The notes under the pieces: generated by a model
The model's database searches: none
Told to the model about the DNA's origin: nothing
Seen by the model: only the letters and a program-made list of their open reading frames with translations
NCBI GenBank assembly: GCA_016794345.1
Contig: JAEUKE010000124.1
Coordinates: 1-64,000, forward strand
Origin: Myxococcales bacterium
Lineage (GTDB): Bacteria > Myxococcota_A > Polyangia > Polyangiales > Polyangiaceae
DNA length: 64,000 bases
Direction of reading: 5' to 3'
Shown here: positions 48,702-52,823 of the stretch, piece after piece
Position numbering within the stretch: the first letter of the stretch is position 1
Layout: the number at the start of each line of letters is the position of its first letter
Position numbers and translations under genes: made by a program

Positions 48702-50030
48702 TCAGCGGCGCCCTCGCGACGGCTTCGAGGGGCCCGGGCGTCGCGCGGGGGACGGCACGGAGGGGGCGCTGCGTGTCGACTTCTTCGTGACCGAGGGGGA
48801 AGGCGCGCGCGGCGACGAGGACGGGCGGCTGACCGAGGGCTCCGAGCTACGGCTCGGCGCGCGTGAGCTCGGCGCGTCGTCCGAGGAGCGCGAGCGCGAG
48901 CTGGGCTTCGAGCGCGGCGTGTCGTTGTCCGGCGCGGAGGGCGCGCTGCTCGAACGAGAGGGGCTCGCCGACGACGGCTTGCCGCGCTTCTTCTTCGGGG
49001 CCTCGGCGCGAGACGCGCCGCTCGAGAAGGAGCCGCCGCGCTTCGACTTGCTGCGGAAGGCAGGCTCGTCGTCCGCACCGGCCGTGCGCTGTGCGGAGCC
49101 CAGGCTGCGCGACTTCGAAGGCTGCGAGCCGAACGAGCCGCGCACGCCCGACTTCTGCATCGCTGCAGACTTGGGGGATTTCGGGTCGGGTCGCATGAAG
49201 GCCTTCGCCTTCGGGTCGTCTTTGCCGAACGACTTGGGCGCCGCCTTGCGCGGGACGCCGGCGTCTTTCAGCGTCGGCTGCGCGGGCTTGTGGCCCTGCC
49301 CTTTCACGGTCGGCGTCGCCGCATGGTACGGCTTCGTTCCCTTCACCGCGCGCTGGACCTCGTCGCGATCGCGGACGACCACGGTGTGCACGTGGTGGTG
49401 GAAGACGTGGTTGCTGTGGCAGAACACGTAAGCCGCCGGCGGAACGGCCCAGAACGTCACGGCGACGCCGTCGACCCAGTAATAGGCAGGCGGCATCGGA
49501 GCCCAGCCCAGGTAGCCGTACGTGCCGGTGCGCCAGACGACCCACGCCGGCGCGTACACGCGGCCGGGGATCCACGCCCAGCCCACGTCCGAGACCCAGA
49601 CCCATCGACCGTAGTGGAAGGGGATGTAGCCCCAGTCGTAGTCGCTGACCCAGAGCCAGTCGCCGTCCTCGGTCAGCTCCCAGTGGCCGGAGCTCACGTA
49701 GGGAGCGAAGTCGGAGCCGACGACGGCCGAGCTTGGGACCCAGACGGTCCCGTAGCTGGGGTGATCGACCCACGAGCCGTAAGGGGAGAGCTTGTCGCGG
49801 AAGACGACCACCGCGCTCGGGTCGGTGTCCTTGATCACGATGGTGGTCGAGGAGCCTTCCTCCTCGTCCTCCATCTCCTCATCGCCCGAGACCTCGTCGC
49901 TCTCGAGGACGTTGTCGTCGTCCGCGTCTTCGTCATCGGCGAAGGCCATCGACGGCGCTCCCACGAAGAGCAGGCCCGAGACGAGCCAAGCGTGAAGGAC
50001 GAAGCCGAGCTTCCGAAGGTTCATGCTCAT
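48702..50030 (-). CDS. Exported WxxP-rich protein, DUF6600-like, with disordered tail
   Basis: 442 residues. Signal peptide (about 1-31, ending SMAFA), then an acidic segment (DEDADDDNVLESDE). The core (about 75-215) is dense in Trp, Tyr and Gly with repeats such as YGSWVDHPSYGTVWVP, YGRWVWVSDVGWAWIP and TYGYLGWAPMPPAY, the hallmark of the DUF6600 group. A His-rich patch HSNHVFHHHVH follows. The last about 200 residues are Ser/Arg/Lys/Pro-rich and disordered. It probably acts in the envelope; the family function is unknown. GGGAGG lies 12 bases before the start. Confidence 0.75.
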   Translation of the reverse strand: MSMNLRKLGFVLHAWLVSGLLFVGAPSMAFADDEDADDDNVLESDEVSGDEEMEDEEEGSSTTIVIKDTDPSAVVVFRDKLSPYGSWVDHPSYGTVWVPSSAVVGSDFAPYVSSGHWELTEDGDWLWVSDYDWGYIPFHYGRWVWVSDVGWAWIPGRVYAPAWVVWRTGTYGYLGWAPMPPAYYWVDGVAVTFWAVPPAAYVFCHSNHVFHHHVHTVVVRDRDEVQRAVKGTKPYHAATPTVKGQGHKPAQPTLKDAGVPRKAAPKSFGKDDPKAKAFMRPDPKSPKSAAMQKSGVRGSFGSQPSKSRSLGSAQRTAGADDEPAFRSKSKRGGSFSSGASRAEAPKKKRGKPSSASPSRSSSAPSAPDNDTPRSKPSSRSRSSDDAPSSRAPSRSSEPSVSRPSSSPRAPSPSVTKKSTRSAPSVPSPARRPGPSKPSRGRR

Positions 50031-50661: not shown

Positions 50662-50804
50662 CGCCTCACGATCCGCGCGCCGGGTTGGCAGGCGTCGAGA
50701 GACGCGGGCGCCTGGTTCGCCAAATTGGCAAAGCACGGTCCGACAGCTCCCTCGCGACTTCGGCATTTGCAGCGTGGCACGGGCTATGCTCAAAACCGCC
50801 GTCG

Positions 50805-52823
50805 ATGCGCGCTCCTGTCGCCGCCCTCGTGTTGTTCGCCTCGCTGCTCCTCACCGCTTCGGCGTGGGCGCAGAACATCACCGTCGACAACGTGAGCCGC
50901 CCAGGCAACGACCGCCAGGGGGACCGCAAGTACCACGTGTCGCGCGCCGACTGCGAGAGCGCGGACGTGTTCGAGTTTCCGTTCACCGTCGGCAGCACCT
51001 CGGGCATCGATCAGATCGAGGTCTGGCTGAGCGAGGGCTCGAGCGGACCCGATTGCTCGCTCTACGAGTCGCGCGGGGGCACGAGCACCACCACGAAGTG
51101 CACGCAGATCCCCGCGGGCACCACCAACATCGACACGATGGGGACGATCGCGATCACGGCGGCCGACATCGCCAACGCGGTTCCCGGCGTGACGGATTGC
51201 GCCGACAGCTACACGGGGGACGCCGCGCACCAGGTCACGCTGTACTTCCTCCTCACGACCGGGCCGGGCGACGACGTGACGGCAGAGAACACCGCGACCT
51301 ACGCCACGGAAGTGGACCTCGTCGGCCCCGCCGCGCCAACGGATGTCACCGCGAAGGAGGCCGAGGAGGCAACGCGACTCGAGTTCACGGCCGAGCAGTC
51401 CGAGACGCCGATCCGGTACTTCGTCTACTGCGATCCGATCCCCGGCCAGGAGGATGCCACCACCTCGAGCACGACGGGCTCCGGTGGCTCGGGTGGCTCG
51501 GGTGGCGCAGGCGGCAGCGGCGGCAGCGGCGGCTCCGGGGGATCGGGTGGCGACGGCGGAGCCGGCGGCAGCGGCACGTCGAGCGCCACCACCTCGGCGA
51601 CCGGCACCGGTGGGAGCACGGGATCCGGCTCCGCGGCGTGCGGAAACGGGGTCCTCGTCGAAGGTGCAACACCGCCGCCGCCCCGTTACCGGTGCGTGCC
51701 AGCTGACGGTAACGATCCGGTCGACGCCACGAACGGCATCAGCGTGACCGGCCTGAAAAACGGGACCACGTACGCGATGGCCGTCGCCGCTGTTGACGAC
51801 CTCGACAACCCCGGCGTTCTCTCCGCCGTCGTCTGCGCGACCCCTCAAGAGGTCGACGACTTCTTCGACGTCTACCGTGGCGCGGGTGGAACGGGGGGCG
51901 GCCTCTGCAGCGTCGGACCCTACGGGGTGGGCGTCGGCGGTGCGCTCGGCTTCGGCGCGGTCGTGCTCGGCGCCGGCCTGAGCCTCGCGGCGAGGCGTCG
52001 CCGCCGCCGAGTCGGTCCGAAGACGATTGGCCTCCTCACGATCGCCGGCCTCTCGCTCGCGCTCCCCGAGATGGCGCGCGCGCAGAGCCGCATCGTCGAC
52101 AACGACTGGCGACAGGAGAACCGCTACCCGGACGAGCCGGCGAACACGCAGTTTGCCGTCGAGGTTCGGTTCGCTCCGTATTGGCCCGCCGTCGACAGCG
52201 AGCCGGGCCTCACGGGCACGCCCTACGAGGACACGTTCGGGACCGACCCCAACTTCTATTTCGGGCTCGAGTTCGACTACATGCCGCTGCGCATCCCGTA
52301 CGTCGGCACGTTCGGGCCGGGCTTCGGGTGGGGCTACACGTGGGCGAGCGAGAAGGCGCGCCTCACCGGCTGCACCCCGCGCGACTCGGAGGCGTGTCAG
52401 TCGGAGGACGTGACGTCGCTCACGATCATGCCCATGCACCTCTCGGCCGTGCTTCGCGCCGACGAGATGATGCGCCGGACCGGCGTGCCCATCGTGCCGT
52501 ACGGCAAGTTCGGCTTCGGGCTGGCGTATTGGTCAGCCGACCAGACGGCGGGCCAGAGCGTCTCGACCGAGCAGCAGAACGGCAAGCCCGTGAACGTCAG
52601 CGGTGAAGACGTCTCCTGGGGCCTGCACGTCGCGCTCGGCGCGGCCTTCGCCCTCAACTGGCTCGACGCGAGCTCGGCCGGCAGGCTGCGCGAGAACACG
52701 GGCATCGGCCACGTGTATCTCTTCGGCGAGTGGATGAACGCGATGCTCACCGGCCTCGGCTCCGGCGACACGATGTACGTCGGCACGTCCACCGTGGTGG
52801 CGGGCCTCGCGGCCGACTTCTGA
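50805..52823 (+). CDS. Secreted Fn3-like protein with MYXO-CTERM-like tail, fused in frame to an outer-membrane beta-barrel-like protein
   Basis: 672 residues from ATG 50805. The signal peptide ends in ASAWAQ. A beta-rich domain and a fibronectin-III-like part (AAPTDVTAKEAEEATRL ... ISVTGLKNGTTYAMAV) are split by a Gly/Ser linker. At about 365-405 comes a cysteine, a Gly-rich spacer, a membrane helix (ALGFGAVVLGAGLSLAA) and RRRRRR, the layout of a MYXO-CTERM sorting tail that should be C-terminal. The frame continues through a second hydrophobic stretch ending LPEMARAQS, like a second signal peptide, into about 260 residues with beta-barrel features (YFGLEFDYMPLRIPY, GPGFGWGYTW) and a final Phe. 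This looks like two exported proteins joined without a stop. Confidence 0.75.
   Translation: MRAPVAALVLFASLLLTASAWAQNITVDNVSRPGNDRQGDRKYHVSRADCESADVFEFPFTVGSTSGIDQIEVWLSEGSSGPDCSLYESRGGTSTTTKCTQIPAGTTNIDTMGTIAITAADIANAVPGVTDCADSYTGDAAHQVTLYFLLTTGPGDDVTAENTATYATEVDLVGPAAPTDVTAKEAEEATRLEFTAEQSETPIRYFVYCDPIPGQEDATTSSTTGSGGSGGSGGAGGSGGSGGSGGSGGDGGAGGSGTSSATTSATGTGGSTGSGSAACGNGVLVEGATPPPPRYRCVPADGNDPVDATNGISVTGLKNGTTYAMAVAAVDDLDNPGVLSAVVCATPQEVDDFFDVYRGAGGTGGGLCSVGPYGVGVGGALGFGAVVLGAGLSLAARRRRRRVGPKTIGLLTIAGLSLALPEMARAQSRIVDNDWRQENRYPDEPANTQFAVEVRFAPYWPAVDSEPGLTGTPYEDTFGTDPNFYFGLEFDYMPLRIPYVGTFGPGFGWGYTWASEKARLTGCTPRDSEACQSEDVTSLTIMPMHLSAVLRADEMMRRTGVPIVPYGKFGFGLAYWSADQTAGQSVSTEQQNGKPVNVSGEDVSWGLHVALGAAFALNWLDASSAGRLRENTGIGHVYLFGEWMNAMLTGLGSGDTMYVGTSTVVAGLAADF

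Follow-up and report, generated by a model that had tools for sequence, protein, structure and literature searches.

The open reading frame at 50805-52823 (+ strand) of the window, the 64,000-nucleotide stretch of Myxococcales DNA analysed here, is a real fusion of a secreted protein with an outer-membrane protein. We put a probability of roughly 0.72 on the reading that this natural fusion works as a secreted polyprotein that receives two cuts. Between its two proteins the chain retains a sorting tail and another export signal, with one arginine cluster shared by both, so that it is probably split after export. As proposed in a preliminary description of this DNA, one frame runs without a stop from the secreted protein through the tail and the second signal into the barrel. 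The parts of the gene and a promoter-like site in front of it are the following.

50775..50790, + strand: sigma-54-type (-24/-12) promoter-like site TGGCACGGGCTATGCT, 14 bases 5' of the start codon
50805..52823, + strand: whole fused gene, 672 aa plus stop; open frame, fused in 3/3 genus members
50805..50870, + strand: N-terminal signal peptide, MRAPVAALVLFASLLLTASAWA/QN; read from the sequence, cut position predicted
50871..51839, + strand: secreted/surface part, beta-sandwich domains flanking a Gly/Ser-rich disordered linker (aa 216-276); from the NF045522 relationship, AlphaFold and Foldseek
51906..51908, + strand: Cys368, presumed myxosortase/lipidation site; a Cys precedes the first helix in 36/51 fused loci
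51927..51992, + strand: first hydrophobic helix (sorting-tail helix), aa 375-396; from hydropathy, with a low-confidence model helix at 384-399
51993..52022, + strand: basic cluster RRRRRRVGPK, sorting-tail end and n-region of the internal signal; at least two basic residues in 51/51 fused junctions
52026..52082, + strand: internal signal peptide with h-region IGLLTIAGLSLALP and AxA-type site ARA/Q; cut expected between 52082 and 52083
52149..52820, + strand: outer-membrane beta-barrel of the MXAN_2562 family, about eight strands; from the NF040596 score and the model fold

Families and folds of the two halves

Residues 449-672 match the NCBIfam profile NF040596 (MXAN_2562 outer-membrane beta-barrel) with 221 bits (1e-65; cut-off 100), and the profile is covered in full (positions 1-208 of 208). 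The sequence up to residue 399 matches NF045522 (MXAN_2561, MYXO-CTERM-anchored) in two stretches with 90.9 bits, which falls short of the cut-off (150). Judged by the cut-off rule, the N-terminal half is a relative of this family and not a member. The two families are named after consecutive Myxococcus locus tags, MXAN_2561 and MXAN_2562, so the frame joins two proteins whose genes are neighbours elsewhere. Pfam added a weak OMP_b-brl match for the fused protein and little else that was informative. A literature search on MXAN_2561 and MXAN_2562 found no paper naming either, and a sequence search of the PDB with the barrel found no relative.

The AlphaFold model of the fused protein was built from 16 sequences and reached a mean pLDDT of 72.7. 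Strands of the N-terminal part lie mostly at pLDDT 85-95, the Gly/Ser linker under 50. Using Foldseek, the model barrel was found to resemble OmpA, NspA, OmpW and OmpX, and the N-terminal half matched tandem two-domain FnIII/cytokine-receptor folds. At the junction the model places helices at 384-399 and 408-428 with low confidence, and since the pLDDT of this hairpin is 30-49, the model is no test of topology.

The junction and its predicted processing

The tail of the window protein consists of GGGLC(368) and 34 residues that end in the Arg run (397-402), followed by VGPKTIGLLTIAGLSLALPEMARA(426)/QS and the barrel. Cys368, the helix 375-396 and Arg397-402 together give the MYXO-CTERM layout, with a single Cys in the tail. 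The preliminary description had read the order as Cys-Gly-helix-Arg6; Cys, helix and the six Arg are present, but the Cys is directly followed by Ser-Val-Gly and not by Gly. The window tail did not match TIGR03901 at its cut-off of 20 bits. The excised tails of both genus sisters scored 24.4 and 21.1 bits, and the separate-gene tails in the window's family reached 12.7-14.8 bits against the cut-off of 20, one of them being unreported by the search, so that the miss of the window tail is partly a family trait. Since TIGR03901 is not matched and 270 residues follow the Arg cluster, placing the tail away from the C-terminus, the fused protein is by family definition not a MYXO-CTERM protein. The tail itself probably works like a MYXO-CTERM tail. 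The genome encodes one clear myxosortase copy (NF040914, 142.6 bits; cut-off 100), the type II secretin GspD (TIGR02517, 483.6 bits) and about 48 MYXO-CTERM matches over the cut-off. Among the other tails that could be followed, 46 of 47 lie within 38 residues of the frame end; a sorting tail in mid-protein is therefore unusual in this genome.

We propose that a single chain would be translated from 50805 and that its N-terminal signal peptide would bring the MXAN_2561-like domain to the periplasm. Transfer would then stop at the MYXO-CTERM-like helix and leave the Arg cluster in the cytoplasm, where the same cluster would serve as the n-region of an internal Sec signal peptide exporting the barrel. 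Myxosortase would cut after Cys368, yielding a lipid-anchored surface protein that would be sent out via type II secretion, and signal peptidase I would cut after Ala426 and free the barrel for insertion into the outer membrane. The discarded piece would be a two-helix hairpin. We infer the topology, both cuts and the 1:1 use of the products from the sequence, and the predicted mechanism is well supported by the anatomy of the junction. A real fusion cut at the tail was one of three options raised previously and is the best backed of them; the fusion is real and the cleavage is a prediction.

The second signal has the features of a signal peptidase I substrate, namely the n-region RRRRRRVGPK, the h-region and ARA at -3/-1. 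An AxA site alone is weak evidence, since AxA is frequent in Ala-rich helices; in the window's family the site sits at the ordinary signal-peptide site of the separate relatives. When the fused genus members were aligned with these relatives, A424, A426 and Q427 were invariant, and the whole internal signal segment corresponds to an ordinary N-terminal signal peptide in the separate relatives. The order of helix, basic cluster, second helix and signal-peptidase-type site is kept in 51/51 fused loci. All 51 junctions have the basic cluster between the helices (mean 5.7 basic and 0.16 acidic residues) and a signal-peptidase-compatible site, which is a strict AxA in 46. Those lacking a Cys before the first helix (15/51) have CFI-box-type tails, with the exception of the doubtful G203.

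A genuine fusion might also remain uncut or be cut only once, with the hairpin staying in the inner membrane and tethering the surface domain, the barrel or both. We consider this unlikely, even though the hairpin is present in all fused loci and the window tail is a weak MYXO-CTERM match. A barrel joined by about 25 residues to an inner-membrane helix could, as we see it, hardly reach the outer membrane. Moreover, the AxA is kept where the separate relatives cut their signal peptide, including the three invariant residues, and the junction residues are without the conservation expected of a structural linker.

A tail of the CFI-box type (CFIATAAYGS...), in place of a MYXO-CTERM tail, was seen on MXAN_2561-like partners that are likewise fused to the barrel (L135, L146, L153, L157, L158, L172 and others); these loci belong to families f10, f12, f42, f43 and f45. 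A literature search on the CFI-box tail found no paper naming the box. As fusions with this tail occur in several families, fusion is not tied to myxosortase.

Gene pairs, internal starts and the age of the fusion

NF040596 is present in 275 of 379 Myxococcota genomes. We fetched a sample of 140 loci and added others via family and named-genome searches, which gave roughly 150 loci from the phylum, and an iterated profile built on the N-terminal domain served to call fused and separate states. The partner lies directly upstream of the barrel gene in nearly every locus, the one exception being located at a contig end. In total, 51 distinct fused loci stand against 101 separate rows, three of the latter being the same genome fetched twice. 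Long open frames in G057, G349, G351, G095, G211 and others had the appearance of fusions and were rejected as spurious high-GC extensions, the N-domain profile placing them with the separate genes. By frame, G203 belongs to the fused loci; we treat it as doubtful, since an internal ATG is present and its linker runs to about 70 residues.

Separate pairs overlap by four bases (ATGA, GTGA or TTGA) in 89 of 101 cases and by one base in five. A strict Shine-Dalgarno sequence (GGAG or GAGG at the right distance) was found in 75 of 91 four-base overlaps, counted slightly differently, and that of gene 2 often falls within the Arg codons of the tail, with a CGG-AGG Arg-Arg pair in 25. Since a four-base overlap places the genes in different frames, fusion requires a change of frame and not just the loss of a stop. 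The fusion would have arisen from overlapping, translationally coupled genes, probably through a frame-changing indel at the overlap. In L193 (G412) both genes are in the same frame and a single TAG is directly followed by ATG; in this layout a fusion could arise through loss of one stop.

The position of gene 2 in the separate relatives, where it begins inside the tail codons, raises the question whether the frame is open while the barrel is translated separately from a hidden internal start, so that two proteins are made. The rare start codon ATT at 52026 in the window, the Shine-Dalgarno sequence plus start kept in G306 and G063 and the internal ATG of G203 speak for such a start. We nevertheless regard it as quite improbable. 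The combination of Shine-Dalgarno sequence and in-frame start occurs at the junction in 2 of 51 fused loci, G306 and G063, and is missing in the other 49. Nearly all fused loci have lost the internal start of gene 2. Neither the window nor G450 has an in-frame ATG, GTG or TTG in the stretch that separates the first helix from the h-region. Around 52020-52080, where the preliminary description had advised looking for an internal start, no usable one is present; the only in-frame ATG (52071) forms part of the MARA cleavage motif. Further candidates in frame are two GTG codons (51927 and 51963), which fall within the first helix, and the ATT at 52026.

The fusion was found in all three genomes of the genus that were examined. 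Besides the window these are a Lake Erken bin (G451, L201) and a Polyangiaceae bin (G450, L202); in the latter, a contig boundary truncates the 5' end of the gene. Both sisters share about 50-56% protein identity with the window over the compared rows, and the three junctions differ among themselves in length and sequence. Junction dN/dS was 0.09-0.55 in 12 of 13 fused-gene pairs, the values within the genus trio being rough because synonymous sites are near saturation. The sole exception to constraint is the G371/G368 hairpin with a dN/dS of 1.23 on few codons. The junction evolves as coding sequence under purifying selection, and the hairpin residues are the least conserved part of the gene in most of the 13 pairs. 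Two further options of the preliminary description fall with these data: a sequencing error is excluded by the independent fused genomes in the genus and by purifying selection across the junction, and a recent loss of a stop codon by the depth of divergence within the genus; loss of a stop would also not have been enough, as the two genes are in different frames (NTGA overlap) in family relatives. Judged by this divergence, the fusion is old at the genus level. The preliminary description would have been refuted by two separate genes in relatives together with a stop or frameshift here; half of this holds, as the window's family outside the genus has two separate genes, but a stop or frameshift between the two parts is absent here. 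That the frame stems from an assembly or sequencing error, with two real genes merged through a missing stop or a false frameshift, is most improbable: the window genome is a draft with 321 contigs and 5% contamination, and relatives outside the genus have two genes, but L201 and L202 independently carry the same fusion with different junction sequences, coding constraint is continuous through the junction, and gene 2 has lost its start as well as its Shine-Dalgarno sequence, more than one error alone would bring about.

A gene tree was calculated by a quick IQ-TREE run with SH-aLRT support only, on 470 columns that combined both domains and excluded the junction. It requires at least 16 changes of state, at least 10 of them imposed by branches whose support is 95% or higher, and gives no direction of change between fused and separate. 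The window's trio forms a fully supported clade inside the separate-gene relatives of its family. Because the window genus is nested among separate pairs, fusion is the simpler direction there. Across the phylum, fusions of this kind seem to have formed repeatedly. The repeated four-base overlap together with the repeated fusion suggests that the products of MXAN_2561 and MXAN_2562 act as partners.

A second internal tail and comparison with known systems

The sole exception among the 47 followable tails is an internal MYXO-CTERM tail at G000:C278:96206-96319. The protein that contains it (L253:6719-10819, minus strand) carries the tail, an Arg-rich sequence, a lipobox (ASGAFSGC/SCDDD) and a second domain. 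An internal tail with lipobox recurs in G450, G451 and G294 (loci L255, L257 and L258), and many relatives of the protein have frames of about 1400 aa. NF033207 matches it weakly (18.6 bits; cut-off 45). The arrangement may be a counterpart of the window design that relies on signal peptidase II.

Internal sorting tails are already known from MXAN_5598 and HVO_0405, and the interesting parts here are the recurrence and the second case with a lipoprotein signal. MXAN_5598 of Myxococcus xanthus has an internal MYXO-CTERM followed by an outer-membrane barrel and was called an atypical configuration; the authors propose a fusion of two genes with the N-terminal part processed at the tag, and note that internal MYXO-CTERM motifs are rare (Guo, Haft and Wall 2025, PMC11980579). 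It differs from the window fusion in its families, a large adhesin and a barrel plus OmpA domain. According to the passage on it in PMC7157517 (citing J Bacteriol 199:e00802-16), HVO_0405 of Haloferax volcanii is a two-gene fusion with a central tripartite sorting signal for which ArtA-dependent cleavage was shown. In contrast to the window fusion it is archaeal, uses PGF-CTERM and an unrelated protease, and is described in that passage as strain-specific. In the TraA-TraB operon, the gene for a MYXO-CTERM surface protein shares a four-base overlap with that for an envelope partner acting in one pathway with it (PMC3325183); the families are others and the frames are separate. The MXAN_2561/MXAN_2562 pair has the same two domains in the same order and adjacency as the window fusion, but in most of the phylum it consists of two genes, usually with a four-base overlap, while the window has one frame. 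The midcut-by-XrtH family (NF033207) is, by its name, cut in mid-protein by the sorting enzyme exosortase H and differs in being an exosortase system. Among bacterial polyproteins, the fbcH cytochrome b/c1 of Bradyrhizobium contains an internal signal at which signal peptidase cuts; it has no sorting tail and comprises inner-membrane respiratory proteins.

Viruses commonly have polyproteins that are split after export, whereas in bacteria such proteins have, to our knowledge, rarely been described; a literature search for bacterial secreted polyproteins found no bacterial case. We see roughly even odds that secreted polyproteins are recurrent in Myxococcota, with overlapping genes for a sorting-tail protein and an envelope partner fused many times around a shared Arg cluster, the hairpin cut out by two membrane proteases and the products made in equal amounts, the second tail with its lipobox being the signal-peptidase-II version. 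Since fused and unfused states occur side by side across the phylum, one can ask what selects for fusion, such as a fixed ratio or coordinated delivery, and whether sorting enzymes are able to work within a chain. Cases in mid-protein will escape any annotation that looks for sorting tags solely at protein ends.

Upstream of the fused gene lies the sigma-54-type site listed above, and 33 of 154 loci carry a TGGCAC-N5-[AT]TGC motif close to where gene 1 begins, compared with 1 of 770 shuffles. This suggests that the MXAN_2561/MXAN_2562-type pair is under RpoN control, with a leader that is very short or absent. A neighbouring 442-aa frame (48702-50030, minus strand; MSMNLRKLGF...) has a tryptophan-rich middle (DWGYIPFHYGRWVW...) and ends in a long basic tail rich in Ser, Arg and Pro.
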